Below are positions 26,167-35,085 of a stretch of DNA of 64,000 nt, one piece after another. The stretch comes from Sphingomonas sediminicola (GTDB lineage Bacteria > Pseudomonadota > Alphaproteobacteria > Sphingomonadales > Sphingomonadaceae): NCBI RefSeq assembly GCF_014489515.1, contig NZ_CP060782.1, positions 434,001 through 498,000 on the forward strand. The letters are read 5' to 3'. The notes below the pieces were generated by a model, which was not told where the DNA came from, made no database searches, and saw nothing but the letters and a program-made list of their open reading frames with translations. The translations under genes were made by a program, and so were the position numbers. Each line of letters begins with the position of its first letter. Position 1 is the first letter of the stretch.

Positions 26167-27341
26167 ATGAATTTGAGGACGCTTGCCGCGTCACTAATGC
26201 TGTTTGCCGTTCTTACGGGATGCAAGGTTTCAGCCAAAGACAACTCGAGCCACGATACGACGACGTCCGACACAGCAGCGCCGGCCCCAACGCCAGCGCC
26301 GCCGCCGCCCACGTCGCCGACCCCAGCCCGAGCCTGCTCGGCGAAGCGGCGATCGCTTCGAACTTCGACTACAACTCCGAGTTGGTTCCGGCCGGTGGCA
26401 ATGGCGCAATCCCGCCTTCAGCCAGCCCGGACGTCGTCGGAGCATTCCGCTTTATCTGTAATGCCGGCCAGGTGCTTCGCGACGATCCGATCGTCTATCC
26501 AGGCCAGCCCGGCAAGAGTCACCTTCACCAGTTCTACGGAAACACGGGCGCGAACGCGTCCTCTACATACAACTCGCTCCGCACCAGCGGCCAGTCGACG
26601 TGCATGTCTCCGCTTAACCGCTCGGCCTACTGGATGCCGGCGATGCTGGATGGAGCAGGCAACGTTGTCCGCCCAGACTTCGTGAGCATCTATTACAAGC
26701 GCCGGCCGAAATCCGACCCGAAATGCAGCCTCTCGAGCGGCGATCCGCAGGCTCAGGGCAATTGCGTCAATTTGCCGAACGGCCTGAAGTTCATCTTCGG
26801 TTACGACATGCTGACGGGCAAATCGCCGACCGGCTTCCTCTGGTTCAATTGCCAGGGACCCGGTTCCGTCCCCGGCAAGTACAAGACGCTTCCGGAGGCC
26901 GCGAAGAATTGCCCGGCCGGTGCGCAGCTGGGTGCAGTCATCGAGGCTCCGGACTGTTGGGACGGCAAGAACCTCGACAGCGCGAACCACCGCGATCACG
27001 TTGCTTACGCTAGCTATGGCGACTGGGGCTACTTCAAGTGCCCGTCGACGCACCCGTACGTCATCCCGACTTTCACTCTCGGAGCATGGTTCACAACGGA
27101 CTCCAACGTGGGGAACTGGCGCCTGTCTTCGGACGAGATGCTCCCGAGCTTGCCGCGCGGGACCACCTTCCACGCCGATTTCTGGATGGCCTGGGATCCG
27201 ACCGTGCACCAGATGTGGGAAGACAATTGTCTCGACAAGAAGCTCAATTGCTCGGCCGGCGATCTTGGTAACGGCTGGCAGATGAAGCAGTTCGCCGGCT
27301 TCACCTGGAACGCGAATCCACGATTGGTCGCGGTGCCGTGA
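26167..27341 (+). CDS. DUF1996-domain lipoprotein, coupled to the virB operon (one-base frameshift)
   Basis: Joined length is 391 residues. The lipoprotein signal MNLRTLAASLMLFAVLTGC (Cys19) is followed by a Thr/Pro-rich linker (about 35-58). The DUF1996 domain then contains GKSHLHQFYGN, STCMSPLNRSAYWMPAML, SIYYKRRP and NHRDHVAYA. Function of DUF1996 is unknown; fungal and actinobacterial members are secreted and resemble carbohydrate-active proteins. The signal and domain are in different frames, broken at CCCC 26321-26324; one added base joins TSPTP to SPSLLGEAA. Its stop overlaps the GTG start of the transglycosylase gene (GTGA at 27338-27341), tying it to the secretion operon. Confidence 0.84.
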
Positions 27342-27952
27342 GCTTGATGCGGCATCTCGCGCTCGCGTTCGGCCTTGTGTGGGCGGGCGCGGCGCAGGCC
27401 GACGTGATCGAGATCGGTCCGAAGGGGTCGGTCAAGACCCTGAGCGATGCTCCGAACGCGACCTGGATGTCGGACGAAACACAGCAGACGACCGGGATTA
27501 CGGACGATGTCGCCATCTTCCCGGACGGTGCCGTGACCGTCCTCAGCGACCGCATCACGGGGAACTACGCACAGGCGTTGCAGGACATCGCCAAGGCCAA
27601 CGACATCAGTCCGCACCTGCTCGAGGCGCTGGTCTGGCAGGAGAGCCGTTGGAACCCGACGGCCATGTCTCGGGCAGGCGCAATCGGTTTGGCGCAATTG
27701 ATGCCCGGAACGGCGCGTGACCTTGGCGTCGACCCGCGCGACCCGATACAGAATCTGGCGGGGGGTGCGCGGTACCTTCGTCAGCAACTGAACCGTTTCG
27801 ACGGCGACGTTGAGAAGGCGCTAGCGGCCTATAACGCGGGTCCGGGGCGGGTGATGACGGCACGGGGGATTCCGTCGATTCCTGAAACGCAAGCGTATGT
27901 GCGCGCCATCGTCGCGCGCCTCGCGGCCAATTCGATTCAAGAAGGAAAATAG
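27338..27952 (+). CDS. virB1: VirB1-like lytic transglycosylase
   Basis: A 204-residue periplasmic enzyme with a signal peptide (about 1-21) and a C-terminal SLT domain. The catalytic Glu lies in ALVWQESRWNP; AGAIGLAQLMPGTA and ALAAYNAGPGRV are the other SLT motifs. Such enzymes open peptidoglycan for a type IV secretion channel. The N-terminal 80 residues (DVIEIGPKGSVKTL...) are not part of the SLT domain and recall other sphingomonad VirB1-like proteins. GTG 27338 overlaps the DUF1996 stop. virB2 follows two bases after the stop. Confidence 0.92.
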   Translation: MSLMRHLALAFGLVWAGAAQADVIEIGPKGSVKTLSDAPNATWMSDETQQTTGITDDVAIFPDGAVTVLSDRITGNYAQALQDIAKANDISPHLLEALVWQESRWNPTAMSRAGAIGLAQLMPGTARDLGVDPRDPIQNLAGGARYLRQQLNRFDGDVEKALAAYNAGPGRVMTARGIPSIPETQAYVRAIVARLAANSIQEGK

Positions 27953-27954
27953 TA

Positions 27955-28257
27955 GTGAAGATTGTCAAAGCGACGGTCGCACTTGCCGCTGCCGCCATGC
28001 CGTCAGCGGCATTCGCGCAGGCCAATCCGCAGGGCTCGGGCCCGATCGTGTCGGCGCTCAGCTGGCTGCAGGGCACTTTGCTCGGCAATGTCGCAACTTC
28101 GGTCGCCGTGATCGCGGTCGCCATGGTCGGTTTCATGATGCTGACCGGCCGCCTCAACTGGCGCGTCGGAGCTACGGTGATCATCGGCTGCTTCATCCTG
28201 TTCGGATCGGCAGCGATCGTGTCGGGCATCCAGTCGACCGCGGCGGTCTCGGGTTAG
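27955..28257 (+). CDS. virB2: TrbC/VirB2-family pilin subunit
   Basis: A 100-residue pilin precursor with a signal peptide (about 1-20, ending AFAQ) and two hydrophobic helices (about 43-63 and 70-95) separated by a short polar loop (TGRLNW), the VirB2 layout. The start written here is GTG 27955, right after the virB1 stop. It would be the major surface-pilus or channel-lining subunit. Confidence 0.9.
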   Translation: MKIVKATVALAAAAMPSAAFAQANPQGSGPIVSALSWLQGTLLGNVATSVAVIAVAMVGFMMLTGRLNWRVGATVIIGCFILFGSAAIVSGIQSTAAVSG

Positions 28258-28262
28258 CCTAG

Positions 28263-28535
28263 GTGCGCGCGCCGCTCTTTCGCGCCCTGACCCGGCCGCA
28301 AATGTTCGCCGGAGTGACGTTCAATTTCTTCGTGATCAATGCCGCGGTCACAACGGAGCTTTTTCTCCTGACCCGCTCGTTCCTGGCCCTTCCGGCGGCG
28401 CTGGCGATCCATGCCGTCGGATATTTCCTGTGCCTGCGCGAGCCCCGCGTCTTCGATCTCTGGCTGACCAAGGTCAGCCGCTGCCCCCGGGTGCGCAACT
28501 ACAAGCGCTGGGGCTGCAACAGCTATTCGCCTTAA
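28263..28535 (+). CDS. virB3: VirB3-family membrane protein
   Basis: A 90-residue protein with the VirB3 pattern: a short start (PLFRALTRPQMFAGV), then two close hydrophobic helices (about 17-34 and 40-58), and a polar tail. It sits between virB2 and virB4 as in most VirB operons and is needed with VirB4 for pilus assembly. GTG 28263 is five bases after the virB2 stop. The virB4 ribosome site AGGAGG (28536-28541) follows directly. Confidence 0.9.
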   Translation: MRAPLFRALTRPQMFAGVTFNFFVINAAVTTELFLLTRSFLALPAALAIHAVGYFLCLREPRVFDLWLTKVSRCPRVRNYKRWGCNSYSP

Positions 28536-28545
28536 GGAGGCGCTA

Positions 28546-30948
28546 ATGAAGTGGACCGGCCCTGCGCAGTGGATGAAGCGGGAAGCAAAGGCAGGCGATC
28601 GCCTGCCGTTCGACCGCCACATCGACGACGCGACGATCCGGCTTCGCGACGGTGCGGTGATGCGCACGTTGCACATCGGTGGGATGGAGTTCGAGACCCA
28701 GGATTCCGAACAGCTCGACCATGCCCAGGCGGTGCGGGAAGTGCTTCTGCGCAGCGTCGTCGACGCACGCTTCGTGCTCTACCATCACGTCGTTCGACGG
28801 CGGGTGACAGTCGCCTCAGGCGGCGAGTTCGATTCCCCCTTCTGCGCTGCTGTCGGCAAGCAGTGGGATGCGCGGCTGGCCGAGCGCCGGCTGTTCGTGA
28901 ACGAGCAGTTCCTGACCATCGTTCGCCGTCCGGCGCGGGGCAAGACGGGCTGGCCCGAGCGCCTGCAGCGCCGCTTCAGCCGTCGCACCGAAGACGATCA
29001 CGGCGCCATTCGCGACCTTGAAGCCGCGACGGCTTCGTTGCTCGCCGGCCTCGAGCCCTATGGTGCGCGCCTATTGTCTACCTACCGGACCGACACCGGC
29101 GAACTCTCGGAGCCGCTCGAATTCCTTTCGAGCATCTACAATGGCGAGATGCGGCCGGTCGCCATGCCTCCGGACGGCAGCGACCTAGGGCATCACCTTC
29201 CGTACAAGCGCGTGAGTTTCGGCCTCGACGCGCTTGAAGTGGGAGGCGCGAGCGGACGCAGCTTCGCGGCCATGCTCTCGATCAAGGAATATCCGGCAGA
29301 GACCCGTCCCGGCCTGATCGACAACATCCTCCGGCTTCCGTGCGAGCTGGTCCTCACGGAGACCTTCGCTCCGGCCGACCGGCAGATTGCGCGCGAGCGA
29401 ATCGACCTCGCGCTCCGCCGTCAGAAAGCCAGCGAGGAAGACAGCGGAACCGAGCGACGGGAGATGCTCTCGGCACGCGACGCGCTCGGGGCTGGCCAGG
29501 CCGGTTTCGGCGACCATCACTTCAGCCTTCTCGTTCGTGCGTCGGACCTCGCCGAGCTCGATACGGCGATGGCGAATGCTGCAGCCGGCATCGCCGACAT
29601 CGGCGCGATCGCGGTGCGTGAGGACGTGAATCTGGAGCCGCTCTTCTGGGGCCAGTTCCCGGGCAACGAATCCTACATCGTTCGCAGAGCGCTCATCTCG
29701 ACCGCCAATGCGGCCGGCTTCATCTCGCTCCACGGCTATCCGGTTGGTCAGCCGGTCGGCAATCACTGGGGCGATTCCGTTTCCGTGCTCGAGACGACCA
29801 GCTCGACCCCTTATTTCTTCAACTTCCACGAGGGCGATCTCGGCCACTTCTCGATCATCGGCCCATCCGGGTCGGGCAAGACGGTCGTGCTCAACTTCCT
29901 CGCCGCGCAGGCGCAGAAATTCGGTCCGCGCACGATCTTTTTCGACAAGGATCGTGGCGCCGAGATCTTCCTTCGGGCTGCGGGCGGCCATTACTCGGTC
30001 CTTCGCCCGGGCGAGCCGACAGGCTTCAACCCGCTTCGCCTGCCGAACACTCCCGAAAACAAGGCCTTCTTGCGCGACTGGCTCGGCGTGCTCCTCAACG
30101 CCGAGGGGCCGGAGGAGCTTGCCTCCATCTCGGCGGCGGTCGACGCCTGTTTCGATCACGATCCGGCCTTCCGCCGGCTCCGCTATTTTCAGGAACTGCT
30201 CGGCGGCCGTCGCCGGCCGGAAGCGGGCGACCTTCAGTCCCGTCTGGATCCATGGGTCAACAATGGCGAGCATGCTTGGCTGTTCGACAATGACGAGGAC
30301 CATCTCGACCTGAGCGCGCGCATCTTGGGTTTCGACATGACCGCGCTGCTGGACAGCCCGCGCCTGCGAACTCCGGCGATGATGTACCTCTTCCACCGCA
30401 TCGACGAGCGGCTCGACGGCGAACCGACCGCAGTGCTGATCGACGAAGGTTGGAAGGCGCTCGACGATCCAGTCTTCGCCGCGCGCATCCGCGATTGGCT
30501 GAAGACGCTTCGTAAGCGCAACGCGATCGTCGGCTTCGCGACGCAGTCGGCGCGCGACGCTCTCGACAGCCGGATTTCGTCGGCGCTCGTCGAGCAGACG
30601 GCGACGATGATCTTCATGCCCAACCCGAAAGCGAAGGCGGAAGACTATTGCGCGGGCTTCGGACTGTCGGCGCATGAACTCGACCTCATTCGCTCGCTGC
30701 CCGCACACAGCCGCTGCTTCCTGATCCGCCATGCCAACCATAGCGTGGTTGCGCGGCTGGACCTGGCTGGAATGCCGGAACTCCTGCTCGTCCTGTCGGG
30801 CCGTGAGTCCACCGTCCGGCGGCTCGACGCAATCCGCGCCAACGTCGGGGACGATCCCGCCCACTGGTATCCGCTGCTGACGCGGGCTCCGTGGCCCGGC
30901 GGTCCGGATGCGGACGATGACGTGCTCTACATCGAGGCGGCTGAGTGA
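28546..30948 (+). CDS. virB4: VirB4-family type IV secretion ATPase
   Basis: An 800-residue P-loop ATPase, the usual VirB4 length, intact in one frame. Walker A GPSGSGKTVV is at about 439, Walker B TAVLIDEGW at about 630, followed by LRKRNAIVGFATQSARDAL (RecA-like sensor region). It drives pilus assembly and substrate transfer at the inner membrane. Its GTGA junction (30945-30948) couples it to virB6. A 616-codon frame on the opposite strand is a shadow of its codon use. Confidence 0.96.
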   Translation: MKWTGPAQWMKREAKAGDRLPFDRHIDDATIRLRDGAVMRTLHIGGMEFETQDSEQLDHAQAVREVLLRSVVDARFVLYHHVVRRRVTVASGGEFDSPFCAAVGKQWDARLAERRLFVNEQFLTIVRRPARGKTGWPERLQRRFSRRTEDDHGAIRDLEAATASLLAGLEPYGARLLSTYRTDTGELSEPLEFLSSIYNGEMRPVAMPPDGSDLGHHLPYKRVSFGLDALEVGGASGRSFAAMLSIKEYPAETRPGLIDNILRLPCELVLTETFAPADRQIARERIDLALRRQKASEEDSGTERREMLSARDALGAGQAGFGDHHFSLLVRASDLAELDTAMANAAAGIADIGAIAVREDVNLEPLFWGQFPGNESYIVRRALISTANAAGFISLHGYPVGQPVGNHWGDSVSVLETTSSTPYFFNFHEGDLGHFSIIGPSGSGKTVVLNFLAAQAQKFGPRTIFFDKDRGAEIFLRAAGGHYSVLRPGEPTGFNPLRLPNTPENKAFLRDWLGVLLNAEGPEELASISAAVDACFDHDPAFRRLRYFQELLGGRRRPEAGDLQSRLDPWVNNGEHAWLFDNDEDHLDLSARILGFDMTALLDSPRLRTPAMMYLFHRIDERLDGEPTAVLIDEGWKALDDPVFAARIRDWLKTLRKRNAIVGFATQSARDALDSRISSALVEQTATMIFMPNPKAKAEDYCAGFGLSAHELDLIRSLPAHSRCFLIRHANHSVVARLDLAGMPELLLVLSGRESTVRRLDAIRANVGDDPAHWYPLLTRAPWPGGPDADDDVLYIEAAE

Positions 30949-32131
30949 GCGGTTGCCCGACATTCGACGGCGCCGGCCCGTCCGGCATCGCCGAGGCGCT
31001 GCGCGTCGTCGACTGCATGAGCGGCGAGGCGGCATCGTTCGCTTTCGCGCGCCTATTCGGGACGGATGCTCTGCTCGGCCAGGCGCTGACGGCGGCGCTG
31101 ACCCTGTACATCGGCTTCTACGCTATTGGATTGCTGACCGGCCGGACGTCGCTTTCCTTGTCCAGTCTGACCCCGCGGATGATGACGCTTGGCATTGCGC
31201 TGACGTTCGCGACCTCGTGGGTCGCCTATCAGTCCGTGATCTGGAACCTGCTGGTCGGTGCCCCGACCAGATCGCGAGCCTGCTCATCGGCACGAACGGA
31301 AGCGCGACTTCATTGTTCGCCGACCGGCTCGACAAGATCTTCGTGGTCGTAGCGCAGGCTGCCGCCGCGACCGAAGCCGCCACGAAGGGTTTGACGGACA
31401 CCGGCTCGATCGCGTCCGGACCGGACCTGCTTTGGCTGTCCGCTCTCCTGCTCCTGCTGGGAACGGTTGGAGTTCTGCTTGTCGCAAGGATCGCGCTCGC
31501 GGCAATGCTCGCGCTGGGCCCCATCTTCATCATCTGCGGCCTATTCGAGGGGAGCCGCGGCTTGTTTGAGGGCTGGCTGAAGGCAGCTGTCCTGTTCGCT
31601 CTGACTCCGCTTCTGGCGGTCCTGATCGGAGGAGCGACCATCGCGCTGCTCTCGCCGATGCTGGACTCCCTTGCAGCAGCGGGCGGCCAGGTCCCGCTCC
31701 GGCTGACCACGACGCTCTTCTTGGCCGCTGCCGTCTACTGCGCCCTGATGGCCGTGACCCTCAAGATCTCGGCAACAATGGTTGCCGGGTGGCGGTTGCC
31801 GTTCGGCGCAAGCCGCGAGCGCAAGACCTCGACCACTTCTGTGGAAGCCGTTCCGGGTCAGTCGCAGGTTCCGTCCGTCGGCCTCGAACCGGCTGCCGCG
31901 ACCGCAAGCAACAGCGATCCTCGCGTCCGCGCGATCATCAGCGCCGCGTCGGGCGGGGCAGCGAGTTACGACCGCGCTCCCGCTCCCACCTATCCTCTTT
32001 ATTCGAGCGCGAGCCAGACGGTGGATGCCACCACTGCCCCTGCGCCCGCACCCCGCACCGACCCACGGCTGGGCAGTCTCAGCCGCCAATATCGACCACG
32101 TAACATGCAGTTTCAGAGGACCAGCTCATGA
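30945..32131 (+). CDS. virB6: VirB6-family inner-membrane channel protein (one-base frameshift)
   Basis: Joined length is 395 residues. About six hydrophobic segments lie between residues 40 and 290, then a polar, Ala/Pro/Ser-rich C-terminal tail (about 300-395). That is the TrbL/VirB6 organisation. The frame breaks at CCCC 31261-31264; adding one base joins VIWNLLVGAP to DQIASLLIGTNG. GTG 30945 overlaps the virB4 stop, and the end overlaps the virB9 start (ATGA). Identity rests on topology and operon position, since VirB6 proteins diverge strongly. Confidence 0.87.
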
Positions 32132-32910
32132 CGAAAATCCCGGCCGCCTTCCTGGCCCTGGCGCTTTTCGCCGTTCCTGCTCACGCAGCCGATCCGCGGC
32201 TCCAGAGCGTCCATTACCAGGCCGACAAGGTCGTCAAGGTTCAGGGCCGTCTCGGCTACCAATCGATGATCGAGTTCGGCCAAGGCGAGCAGATTGAGAA
32301 TGTCGCCGTTGGCGATTCCTCAGCCTGGCAGGTGACGCCGAACAAGCGCGCCAACCTGCTGTTCCTGAAGCCGCTGATGGGCAAGGCGAAGACCAACATG
32401 ACGGTCATCACCGATCAGCGCACCTATCTCTTCGATCTCAGCGTCGCCTCGACGGGCAGCACGCCGATGTACAACCTGCGCTTCACCTATGGCGCATTGC
32501 CCCCGCCAAGTGCGGAAGCGCCGCAGAAGAAAATTGCCTACCCGCAACTCCTCGCGGATGCGTCTGCCGCGGCTCCGGCCGTCGCCGCGTCTGCCGCGGC
32601 TCCGGCCGTCGCTCATCCCAAGATGAACTATGCGTGGAAGGGAAAGGGCGACAAGGAACTGCTTCCCGCCCGCTACTATGACGACGGCCACTCGCTCTAC
32701 CTTCAGTGGAAAGCCGGGGCGCCGATGCCCGCCTTGTTCGACCGCGACGAGGAAGGCCGCGAAGGTCTTCTGAACTATCGCCAGCAGGGCTCCTTCGTAG
32801 TCGTAGAGGGCGTCCCGAACACGCTGGTCATGCGGCTCGGCAAGGACACGGCCGTATTGATCAATCGCAACCAATCAAAGTCGGACTCCATCCGGTTGGC
32901 GGGGCGCTAA
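32128..32910 (+). CDS. virB9: VirB9/TrbG/CagX-family outer-membrane complex protein
   Basis: A 260-residue periplasmic protein with a signal peptide (about 1-20, AHAAD). The N-terminal domain includes IEFGQGEQIENVAVGDSSAW and FLKPLMGKAKTNMTVIT, and the C-terminal domain contains MNYAWKG and DDGHSLYLQWK, the CagX pattern. The linker holds a perfect 9-residue duplication (ASAAAPAVA twice), encoded by a 27-base tandem repeat. With VirB10 it forms the core complex in the outer membrane. virB7, usually next to it, is absent. Confidence 0.94.
   Translation: MTKIPAAFLALALFAVPAHAADPRLQSVHYQADKVVKVQGRLGYQSMIEFGQGEQIENVAVGDSSAWQVTPNKRANLLFLKPLMGKAKTNMTVITDQRTYLFDLSVASTGSTPMYNLRFTYGALPPPSAEAPQKKIAYPQLLADASAAAPAVAASAAAPAVAHPKMNYAWKGKGDKELLPARYYDDGHSLYLQWKAGAPMPALFDRDEEGREGLLNYRQQGSFVVVEGVPNTLVMRLGKDTAVLINRNQSKSDSIRLAGR
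32560..32613 (+). repeat. 27-base tandem repeat inside virB9
   Basis: Two copies of a 27-base unit (32560-32586 and 32587-32613) identical except for the last base. They encode an Ala/Pro linker between the two VirB9 domains. Copy number could vary between strains by slippage. Confidence 0.9.
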
Positions 32911-32911
32911 G

Positions 32912-33994
32912 ATGAAGAATTCTCTCATTCTGCTCGAGAAGCAGGAGCAATCCGATCCACGTATCGAGCTCGAGCCTGAAACGCTTGCGCTCGCCAAGCG
33001 GAATTCATTCCCGCTCGTTGCCCAGCGCACCTCGAAGAAGGACGGAATGGGCCTCGCGATGGGCGCCGCCGGAGCGCTGATGATCGGTGCGGTGACGTTC
33101 GTCGGGTTGTCCGGCGGTCGCGAGAGCGCTCCCAGCCCCAAGGCTCCCGCCGCGGCCACGCTTCCGCAGACTACTCCGGGAGCGGTCGCGCTGCCGCCGG
33201 AGGCTGTAACCCAGCTTGCGCCCGGAGCACCGCTTGCCGCTCCCGTTCCGGGACAAGGCCCGGTCATGACCGGCGAGCCGGCGGTTCCGCCGCAGCTTGT
33301 TCCGGGCGAGCCACTAAACACCCATGGCGGCCCGACGCTAATCGTCGACAACAGTGGCTCGAATGCGGGCACGCCGGCGGCCCTCGCTCCCGGCGGTGCG
33401 GGCGGTGACGACGCATTCGGGATCGCCAGCACCGACGTCGCCAGGGCCACGCGGATGAGGAACCCGGCCCAGACCGTATCGCAGGGCACTCTGATCCCGG
33501 CGGTTCTGGAAACGGCGATCAACAGCGACCTTCCAGGCTATGTCCGCGCAGTCGTGAGCAGCGATGTCCGCAGCTTCGACGGTAAGAATATTCTCGTTCC
33601 GAGGTCTTCGCGCCTGATCGGCCAGTACAAGAGCGGCGTCGCGAACGGACAGACGCGCGCCTATGTCATGTGGACGCGCCTGATCCGTCCCGACGGCGTC
33701 TCGGTCGCGCTTGCATCGCCTGCCGTGGACGAAACCGGCCAGACCGGTCTTACCGGCAAGGTTGACAGCCACTTCATGAAGAGGTTCGGCTCGGCACTCC
33801 TGCTGTCCATCGTTGGAACGGCTTCCACGCTCGGAAGCGGCGGAAGCGCGCTCATCCTTTCCGGCGGGCAAAGCGCTGCGTCGGTGGCCGCCTCGCAGAA
33901 CGGCCAGATTCCGCCGACGATCAAGGTTCGTCAGGGTCAGCCGATCCGGGTCTTCACGGCCAAGGACCTCGACTTCTCGACGGTGGCTGGATGA
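32912..33994 (+). CDS. virB10: VirB10/TrbI-family protein
   Basis: A 360-residue protein spanning both membranes. A cytoplasmic N-terminus (about 1-45) is followed by a membrane helix (LAMGAAGALMIGAVTFVGL), a Pro/Ala-rich periplasmic stretch (about 70-140) and the TrbI beta-barrel domain (about 165-355). That domain includes QGTLIPAVLETAINSDLPG, RSSRLIGQY and MWTRLIRPDG. It links the energy source to the outer-membrane pore. One base separates its ATG from the virB9 stop, and it overlaps virB11 by four bases. Confidence 0.94.
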   Translation: MKNSLILLEKQEQSDPRIELEPETLALAKRNSFPLVAQRTSKKDGMGLAMGAAGALMIGAVTFVGLSGGRESAPSPKAPAAATLPQTTPGAVALPPEAVTQLAPGAPLAAPVPGQGPVMTGEPAVPPQLVPGEPLNTHGGPTLIVDNSGSNAGTPAALAPGGAGGDDAFGIASTDVARATRMRNPAQTVSQGTLIPAVLETAINSDLPGYVRAVVSSDVRSFDGKNILVPRSSRLIGQYKSGVANGQTRAYVMWTRLIRPDGVSVALASPAVDETGQTGLTGKVDSHFMKRFGSALLLSIVGTASTLGSGGSALILSGGQSAASVAASQNGQIPPTIKVRQGQPIRVFTAKDLDFSTVAG

Positions 33995-35001
33995 CCGTAC
34001 CAGCGCCTGCGACCGCGCCGGCGGACGTAGCCCACCTCGGCGTCTATCTTTCCGCCTATCTGGCGCCGTTCCAGCAATGGCTGGCCGACGAGAATGTCAC
34101 GGAGATCCTCGTCAACCAGCCGGGCGAGGTATGGACCGAGAGCGCCGGGAAGGCCGGCATGGCGCGGCACGAGGCTCCGGGCATCGACGATGTCCTTCTC
34201 AGCCGGCTCGCGGCCCAGGTCGCGCGTTTCAGCCACCAGGGCATCAGCCGCGAGCGGCCCTTGCTGTCGGCGGTGCTTCCGACCGGCGAACGAATCCAGA
34301 TCGTCAGTCCGCCAGCGACGCGGCGCCACTTCGCGTTGTCGATCCGCCGCCACCGGCTGCTCGACGTTCCGCTGACCGCTTACGAGCGCGAATCGAAGGG
34401 TGCCTCTGCAAAGCCTTGGCACGAGCGAGCAGAGGAAACGAGCGACGTCGACTTCCTCAGCCAGGCAGTGCGCGGTGGTGCGACGATCTTGATCTCCGGA
34501 GGCACCTCGAGCGGCAAGACGACGTTCCTCAACGCTCTTCTTCGTGAAATTCCGGAGCACGAGCGGGTCATCCTAGTCGAGGACACGCCGGAAATACGCC
34601 TCGGAAATCGCAACGGCGTGGGCCTGATCGCCGTGAAGGGCGAGACGGGAGAAGCGCGGGTCACCACCGACGACCTGCTCCAGGCCGCGCTGCGACTTCG
34701 CCCTGACCGTATCGTCCTCGGCGAGCTTCGCGGTGGCGAGGCCGTCAGCTTCCTCCGCGCGATCAATACCGGTCACCCGGGCTCGTTCAGTACTATCCAC
34801 GCCAACTCGCCGCAGGGCGCGTTGGAGCAGCTCGCCCTGATGGTGATGCAGAGTGGCCTCGGCCTCTCGCGGCTGGATACAATCGCTTACGTCCGCTCTG
34901 TCGTCGACCTAATCGTCCAGCTCGACCGGCAAGGCGGCCAGCGCGGGATTGCCTCGATCGAACGCACGTCGGACATCTTCAAAAGGGAATTCGGCTCTTA
35001 A
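33991..35001 (+). CDS. virB11: VirB11-family secretion ATPase
   Basis: A 336-residue hexameric traffic ATPase. Walker A GGTSSGKTTFL is at about 170, the Asp box EDTPEIRL near 195, Walker B IVLGELRGGE near 241 and the His box GHPGSFSTIHANS near 261, all in family order. It would switch the VirB4 machine between pilus building and transfer. Last gene of the operon; its stop is ten bases from the 3' end of the tRNA-Gln gene. No virD4 coupling protein follows. Confidence 0.95.
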   Translation: MTVPAPATAPADVAHLGVYLSAYLAPFQQWLADENVTEILVNQPGEVWTESAGKAGMARHEAPGIDDVLLSRLAAQVARFSHQGISRERPLLSAVLPTGERIQIVSPPATRRHFALSIRRHRLLDVPLTAYERESKGASAKPWHERAEETSDVDFLSQAVRGGATILISGGTSSGKTTFLNALLREIPEHERVILVEDTPEIRLGNRNGVGLIAVKGETGEARVTTDDLLQAALRLRPDRIVLGELRGGEAVSFLRAINTGHPGSFSTIHANSPQGALEQLALMVMQSGLGLSRLDTIAYVRSVVDLIVQLDRQGGQRGIASIERTSDIFKREFGS

Positions 35002-35011
35002 GTCGATCGAC

Positions 35012-35085
35012 TGGATGCCCCGCGTGGATTCGAACCACGATTGACGGAGTCAGAGTCCGTAGTCTTACCATTAGACGACGGGGCA
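35012..35085 (-). tRNA. tRNA-Gln (anticodon CTG)
   Basis: On the minus strand the acceptor arms TGCCCCG and CGGGGCA pair perfectly. The D-arm GTCTAATGGTAAGAC, the anticodon arm with CTG between ACGGA and TCCGT, and the T-arm GTGG-TTCGAAT-CCAC are all present, and CCA is encoded at 35014-35012. The U1-A72 pair is typical of glutamine tRNAs. A perfect palindrome (AGTCGATCGACT, 35001-35012) abuts the 3' end. Confidence 0.95.

Follow-up and report, generated by a model that had tools for sequence, protein, structure and literature searches.

VirB8 is usually counted among the core assembly components of type IV secretion systems (T4SSs). The pertussis-toxin exporter Ptl is a T4SS that works without VirD4: its cargo genes lie directly before the machine genes, its cargo is first exported by Sec, and the system, which keeps VirB8 (PtlE), exports a soluble toxin. 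We analysed a 64,000-nucleotide stretch of the genome of Sphingomonas sediminicola (NZ_CP060782.1, positions 434,001 to 498,000), below called the window, in which the genes virB1-2-3-4-6-9-10-11 lie downstream of a gene for a DUF1996 lipoprotein, all on the plus strand (26167-35001 of the window). The operon resembles the Agrobacterium VirB-type (P-type, MPF-T) T4SS in containing VirB1, B2, B3, B4, B6, B9, B10 and B11 in the usual order, but it differs in lacking VirB8 and VirD4, and neither VirB5 nor VirB7 was recognised.

A table footnote in Persson et al. 2009 (PMC2702493) records that the T4SSs of Erythrobacter litoralis HTCC2594 and Erythrobacter sp. NAP1 have no VirB8; according to the methods of that paper both VirB8 and VirD4 were looked for, and the footnoted account leaves a neighbouring partner gene unaddressed. 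These strains come from the same bacterial group and, going by the footnote, lack the same component; their systems very likely belong to the same lineage as the window operon. A VirB8-less locus (L117) was also present in Erythrobacter sp. SD-21, which the footnote does not name. The lack of VirB8 in two Erythrobacter T4SSs is already known from this source; no lipoprotein partner of the operon appeared in the titles and abstract openings of the literature on sphingomonad T4SSs, VirB8 lack, DUF1996, DUF1501 with DUF1800, and Rhs. We tentatively propose that the operon represents a conserved chromosomal VirB lineage of Sphingomonadales and some Azospirillaceae, which has lost VirB8, acts independently of VirD4 and serves as a two-step exporter or display device for a neighbouring lipoprotein.

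The preliminary description, made from the letters of the window, regarded the reduced VirB set as a genuine unit, and this view was borne out: the set is conserved across related loci, and neither a VirB8 nor a VirD4 that would complete it turned up in this genome. When the window VirB4 was compared with 296 genomes of the order, 161 gave a match at 1e-50, and 90 (S. sediminicola included, counted from the listed rows) carried a copy of at least 59% identity. Within its genus, S. sediminicola alone among the listed genomes had a VirB4 match; the 20 listed congeners had none. A class-wide comparison (385 genomes) added two VirB4 copies from outside the order (70-71% identity), both from one genus, one of them identical to that of Niveispirillum lacus (L096 = L196). 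None of 72,556 plasmid records held a VirB4 of at least 60% identity; the best plasmid copy was just 56.3% identical, and a mobile plasmid origin was rejected. We collected 120 related loci in two sets (40 and 80), with 115 distinct VirB4 sequences and including two VirB8-positive loci (L058 and L061). The order of the virB genes was constant across them as far as the contigs extend, and BLAST detected VirB3 and VirB4 in all 120, VirB6 in 118, VirB2 and VirB9 in 117, VirB10 in 114, VirB11 in 112 and VirB1 in 99.

As noted earlier, the locus lacks VirB8, VirD4 and VirB5; this was confirmed, and the search was extended to the whole genome, where a single VirB4 domain was found. A search for VirB8 gave no match in the S. 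sediminicola genome; it also gave none in 14 control genomes, but it matched 99 of the 296 genomes of the order. VirD4 was likewise without a match in S. sediminicola (5 of the 14 control genomes matched), as was the relaxase family PF03432, the only relaxase family searched (1 of 14). VirB5 (PF07996) was found neither in S. sediminicola nor in the 64 genomes described below, a weak negative since the control genomes were silent too. The distance from the end of VirB4 to VirB9 was 1166-1418 bp in 121 of 124 VirB8-less loci (in the other three no VirB9 is seen), compared with 1943-3893 bp in the 13 loci that have VirB8; because it is so short in the former, no gene is hidden there, which rules out a VirB8 concealed in the operon. 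A small VirB7-like lipoprotein gene has no room between VirB4 and VirB9 either, although no search with a VirB7 hidden Markov model was made. We also rejected compensation for VirB8 by a longer VirB6, which is equally long in the VirB8-positive relatives (392-439 amino acids where called). Among the 90 genomes with a close VirB4, 64 were without a VirB8 match; of the remaining 26, 24 have VirB8 more than 20 kb from the operon, and for two (G161 and G285) no VirB8 position is listed. The 64 VirB8-less genomes included 22 with VirD4 matches (three with E under 1e-50) and nine with PF03432 matches.

The gene upstream of the VirB8-less operons usually codes for a lipoprotein that is exported and has a flexible linker. 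These proteins belong to unrelated families, of which a putative beta-helix lipoprotein, here called lipo11, is the most frequent; the commonest surroundings comprise genes for a TonB-dependent receptor, for lipo11 and for a small TPR protein, and in many cases ppk and ppx follow virB11. Lipo11 has no Pfam family. Its predicted model (pLDDT 84.7) resembles a right-handed beta-helix according to VIA-align (best Z 22.3, root mean square deviation 3.5, 282 aligned positions); Foldseek alone gave no match at E <=0.001, the best being an alginate epimerase at 0.0036. At other loci the position is taken by dioxygenase-like Tat-type lipoproteins with Ser/Thr-rich linkers (L057, L059, L071, L096 = L196, L098 and L197, with L102 lacking a lipobox), ferritin-like Tat-type lipoproteins (L101 and L103), phosphoesterase lipoproteins accompanied by a MauG-like gene (L032 = L097, L099 and L106), DUF1800 lipoproteins accompanied by DUF1501 (L060, L137 and L198), or pectate-lyase-like lipoproteins (L112, under the Pfam cut-off, and its relative L124). 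Some members of these families were identified by Pfam and the rest assigned by tblastn, and lipoboxes were identified by eye in L060, L112, L124 and L137.

The association was also counted automatically, as a lipobox after a hydrophobic stretch in either of the two nearest upstream genes of at least 150 amino acids; 10 loci with less than 5.5 kb of upstream sequence were left out, but L101 and L103 were retained although they are short as well. A lipoprotein was scored in 72 of 72 lipo11 loci, 15 of 20 basal loci, 15 of all 33 non-lipo11 VirB8-less loci and 1 of 13 VirB8-positive loci, against a background of 22 in 700 other genes. Fisher tests on genes gave p-values of 9.4e-45 (lipo11), 1.1e-11 (basal), 3.1e-8 (non-lipo11 VirB8-less) and 0.56 (VirB8-positive), which are too small, the loci being related, the basal set named from the tree and the families recognised after looking.

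A VirB4 tree was built from 75 of 131 distinct rows, with the lipo11 class sampled one in four, and identical VirB4 repeats (six pairs) were dropped from the counts. With the exception of the long-branch locus L198, all VirB8-less loci fell on one side of a single branch (SH-aLRT 98, 61 rows); the root is a midpoint, and the VirB8-less group is a clade only if the true root falls on the other side. On this tree the dioxygenase label needs five changes over seven rows and the DUF1800/DUF1501 label three changes over three rows, in three separate places, while the phosphoesterase and ferritin-like labels need one each. The repeated changes of the former two labels indicate that partners of one kind occur together with machines that are only distantly related to each other. 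At the VirB8-positive locus L058 a DUF1501/DUF1800-like pair adjoins virB11, and the lipoprotein association may for this reason predate VirB8 loss.

From these neighbourhoods we infer that the adjoining lipoprotein is the substrate, carried outward to the cell surface. In such a mechanism, Sec or Tat would translocate the lipoprotein across the inner membrane, and it would be lipidated. VirB4 and VirB11 would power an envelope complex of VirB9, VirB10 and VirB2, for which VirB1 would open the cell wall, and this complex would carry the lipoprotein through the outer membrane or anchor it there, while its flexible linker would keep the folded domain on the outer side. The slot would be filled by different lipoproteins in different lineages, and in S. 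sediminicola by DUF1996. It is possible, at a somewhat lower level of confidence than for the exporter as such, that this amounts to a secretion class of its own, namely a machine free of VirB8 and VirD4, dedicated to placing one neighbouring lipoprotein on the surface, whose cargo gene is exchanged between lineages. The closest working parallel would be Ptl, which is alike in its independence of VirD4 and in its adjoining upstream genes; here, in contrast, VirB8 has been lost and the neighbouring genes encode lipoproteins with a variety of folds. Being present in 90 of 296 sampled genomes of the order, and retaining the ATPases, the channel and the outer-membrane core, the lineage offers a natural minimal machine for asking what VirB8 and VirD4 do. 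If the neighbour is indeed cargo, type IV machines would join the few known lipoprotein routes to the outer surface, and DUF1996, DUF1800, DUF1501 and the sphingomonad beta-helix lipoprotein would gain a function by association.

Several observations weigh against an exporter of neighbouring lipoproteins. Export itself is deduced from gene neighbourhoods, and not every locus has a lipoprotein neighbour: the automated count scored none at 18 of the 33 distinct VirB8-less loci outside the lipo11 class, and 14 of these show no lipoprotein next door. The basal misses were the window itself (because of a frameshift), L102 (an exported protein with no lipobox), L137 (a lipobox with Glu, which the rule missed), L118 (a gene that was not called) and L209 (none seen). 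In 13 displaced loci within the lipo11 clade (L037, L045, L047, L053, L055, L065, L105, L113, L125, L140, L146, L170 and L195) no lipoprotein neighbour was scored. Seven of them lie in genomes that were searched for lipo11, which was found elsewhere in five (G253, G219, G244, G175 and G204) and gave no match in two (G177 and G182). Lipo11 occurs in 82 of the 90 genomes with the operon and also in 116 of the 206 without it; since it is common there too, its adjacency may be old synteny. The pair at L058 shows that partner and VirB8 loss are imperfectly linked. Finally, DUF1996 beside virB is a single case, and it stands next to an exopolysaccharide cluster, a frequent setting of this family.

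This last point concerns the suggestion in the preliminary description that a DUF1996 protein is the lipoprotein partner or product of the machine. In its general form the suggestion held, unrelated lipoproteins occupying the same slot elsewhere; the specific coupling to DUF1996 did not. Of the 120 related loci, 110 extend 2.5 kb or more upstream of virB4, far enough to include the expected place of DUF1996, and none has it there, so that DUF1996 was rejected as a conserved virB partner. The preliminary description had itself named the lack of DUF1996 at this locus in close relatives as a refuting outcome, and by that measure the specific coupling fails as a conserved trait. No DUF1996 match was found in the first 40 neighbourhoods, and the other 80 gave only one (L166), which lies in opposite orientation within an exosortase-type locus, roughly 3 kb beyond a copy of virB4. 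It is possible, though somewhat less likely than the exporter, that DUF1996 is a passenger from an exopolysaccharide locus, or from a phage, which became the chance neighbour of a horizontally gained virB operon whose function lies elsewhere; for DUF1996 itself, origin as a passenger from the adjoining exopolysaccharide cluster is nearly as likely as a role as cargo. The family matched only 12 of the 296 genomes, and in the seven others of these that have a close VirB4 the two are on different contigs or separated by 185 kb or more. Five copies (L189, L190, L191, L192 and L194) are in exopolysaccharide, exosortase or PEP-CTERM loci (gene names assigned by eye), with PEP-CTERM motif matches near those of L189, L190, L192 and L194; two more (L186 and L187) adjoin unrelated genes. 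L194 is a second S. sediminicola copy, 65-75% identical and about 29 kb away, in an exopolysaccharide-type locus. The window itself contains an exosortase/exopolysaccharide cluster at about 5-22 kb, and DUF1996 relatives lie beside phage-like genes on 27 IMG/VR contigs. Moreover, the congener G303 (86% complete, 4% contamination) has manC and ppx separated by a symporter-like gene alone (by eye), and neither virB nor DUF1996, which indicates that the module was inserted in S. sediminicola or lost in G303. Against a passenger speak the four-base overlap with virB1 and the same-strand packing, which suggest co-expression, and the other linker-bearing lipoproteins that occupy the slot in related loci.

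A structural role, in which the lipidated N-terminus of the neighbour anchors VirB9 in the outer membrane in place of VirB7, would account for the lack of a small VirB7-like gene that fits between VirB4 and VirB9, and for the lipobox and linker as the one trait common to otherwise unrelated partners. A structural part is not expected to switch fold between lineages, however, and it is because the lipoproteins are unrelated between loci that we favour cargo over a fixed VirB7 substitute. Several loci also have no adjoining lipoprotein, and the partner in S. gellani (L102) has a twin-arginine signal without a lipobox (read by eye; not detected in a scan), which together make this role very unlikely. 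Only slightly better placed, and still unlikely, is a pilus or attachment machine with no dedicated cargo and with incidental surface genes as neighbours. It is consistent with the near-constant presence of the pilin VirB2, and the constant presence of VirB3, in the 120 loci, and with the position of the operon within or beside exopolysaccharide genes in Sphingorhabdus/Sphingopyxis (by eye) as in the window; the neighbour enrichment is nevertheless strong, is of one kind (lipoproteins) and recurs with independent families. There is, finally, the question of whether the operon is decaying in S. sediminicola, since both the DUF1996 gene and virB6 are split by frameshifts in the assembly and the 20 other listed genomes of the genus have no VirB4 match. 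We consider such pseudogenes decidedly improbable. The exosortase gene epsH (9171-9527/9524-9952) and the RNase E/G gene (40735-41748/41724-42827) of the window are split in the same way, and both operon splits are therefore likely to be assembly indels or sequencing errors. The assembly is a single contig of 2.76 Mb with a completeness score of just 90.6%, and the remaining virB genes are open. DUF1996 also looks to be under purifying selection, the two copies of the genome giving a rough ratio of non-synonymous to synonymous change of about 0.16; synonymous change is close to saturated (pS 0.64), and the second copy was read across three frames.

The gene content and order of the operon given in the preliminary description agreed with Pfam (DUF1996, SLT, VirB2/TrbC, VirB3, VirB4, VirB6/TrbL, VirB9/CagX, VirB10/TrbI, VirB11/T2SSE) and with NCBIfam, which was also run, and the four-base overlaps were borne out by direct reading (GTGA at 27338 and 30945, ATGA at 32128 and 33991); the two frameshifts had gone unnoticed. 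The DUF1996 lipoprotein gene (26167-27341) encodes a signal peptide with the lipobox LTGC (by eye), a Pro/Thr-rich linker and the DUF1996 domain, the lipoprotein start at 26167 and the domain (open reading frame 26220-27341) being in different frames with one frameshift between them. The domain matches PF09362 over its full length (E 3.7e-39, profile 1-237 of 237), and an alignment of 19 sequences has many invariant columns. For the model of the 26220 reading frame predicted by AF2 (pLDDT 80.3), no PDB match was obtained at E 0.001, and the best VIA score was Z 2.7. DUF1996 in fungal vacuolar proteins is described in PMC4738358.

The SLT lytic transglycosylase gene virB1 (27338-27952; PF01464, E 1.1e-27) starts at GTG 27338 or possibly at ATG 27347. 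It is followed by the pilin gene virB2 (27955-28257; PF04956, E 7.7e-18), virB3 (28263-28535; PF05101, E 7.3e-27) and the ATPase gene virB4 (28546-30948; TIGR00929 over cut-off, E 7.5e-222). The gene for the polytopic channel protein VirB6 (30945-32131; PF04610) has one frameshift near 31265; its pieces at 30945-31352 and 30908-32131 match TrbL positions 1-57 and 55-213, and the two halves form a single frame without a gap in most of the 40 relatives aligned. Then come virB9 (32128-32910; PF03524, E 5e-50, and TIGR02781, E 5.4e-57, under its cut-off), virB10 (32912-33994; PF03743, E 9.9e-53) and the ATPase gene virB11 (33991-35001; TIGR02788 over cut-off, E 3.1e-94). Of the parts of a VirB-type T4SS, the operon has both ATPases, VirB4 and VirB11, whose Walker A motifs (GPSGSGKT and GGTSSGKT, respectively) are intact, and with VirB6, VirB9, VirB10 and VirB2/VirB3 over the Pfam gathering scores. 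A promoter scan found none, and PADLOC, run on five proteins, gave as its sole match a weak ATPase one, to VirB11. Shared synteny through the ppx gene at 35041 was dropped as an argument, the window Ppx being only 23-35% identical to the ppk-linked Ppx of Erythrobacteraceae loci.

The cluster adjoining the operon (about 5-25 kb of the window) includes genes for a PEP-CTERM protein and manC (by eye), a Wzz-like protein (below cut-off), an EpsI-type DUF3485 protein, EpsH, glycosyltransferases, and Wzx- and Wzy-like proteins. The DUF1996 relatives on the 27 IMG/VR contigs (L211-L237), some of which are near-copies of each other, show 44-63% identity and lie near lysozyme- or lysis-, integrase- and capsid-like genes (names by eye); some of the proteins are lipoproteins with extra N-terminal regions. 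In Tsuneonella troitsensis, two contigs (L160 and L166) share a virB3-virB4 stretch of 2.5 kb, 99.7% identical, from which one continues into the virB operon and the other into the exosortase-type locus with DUF1996; the second virB4 copy is either real or an assembly artefact. The DUF1800 protein of L060 (4791-6992 of that locus) has, after a possible lipobox, a Pro-rich linker of more than 100 residues built of repeats like PPPPPVPV.

The VirB8-positive relatives comprise 12 chromosomal loci of Sphingomonadaceae, with VirB4 51-58% identical, and a thirteenth (L199, 45%) from another family. They share the gene order of the window operon but have VirB8 between VirB4 and VirB9, and in L204 VirB2 and VirB3 follow VirB6. 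In four of the 13 (L200, L201, L206 and L208) the operon is flanked by Rhs-repeat proteins of about 1,400 amino acids, recognised by Pfam in L200 and L206 and by tblastn in L201 and L208, which might possibly be T4SS-linked effectors. In L206 the protein has a phospholipase A2 domain at its end (Pfam), and L200, L201 and L206 carry a second VirB2-like gene after virB11.

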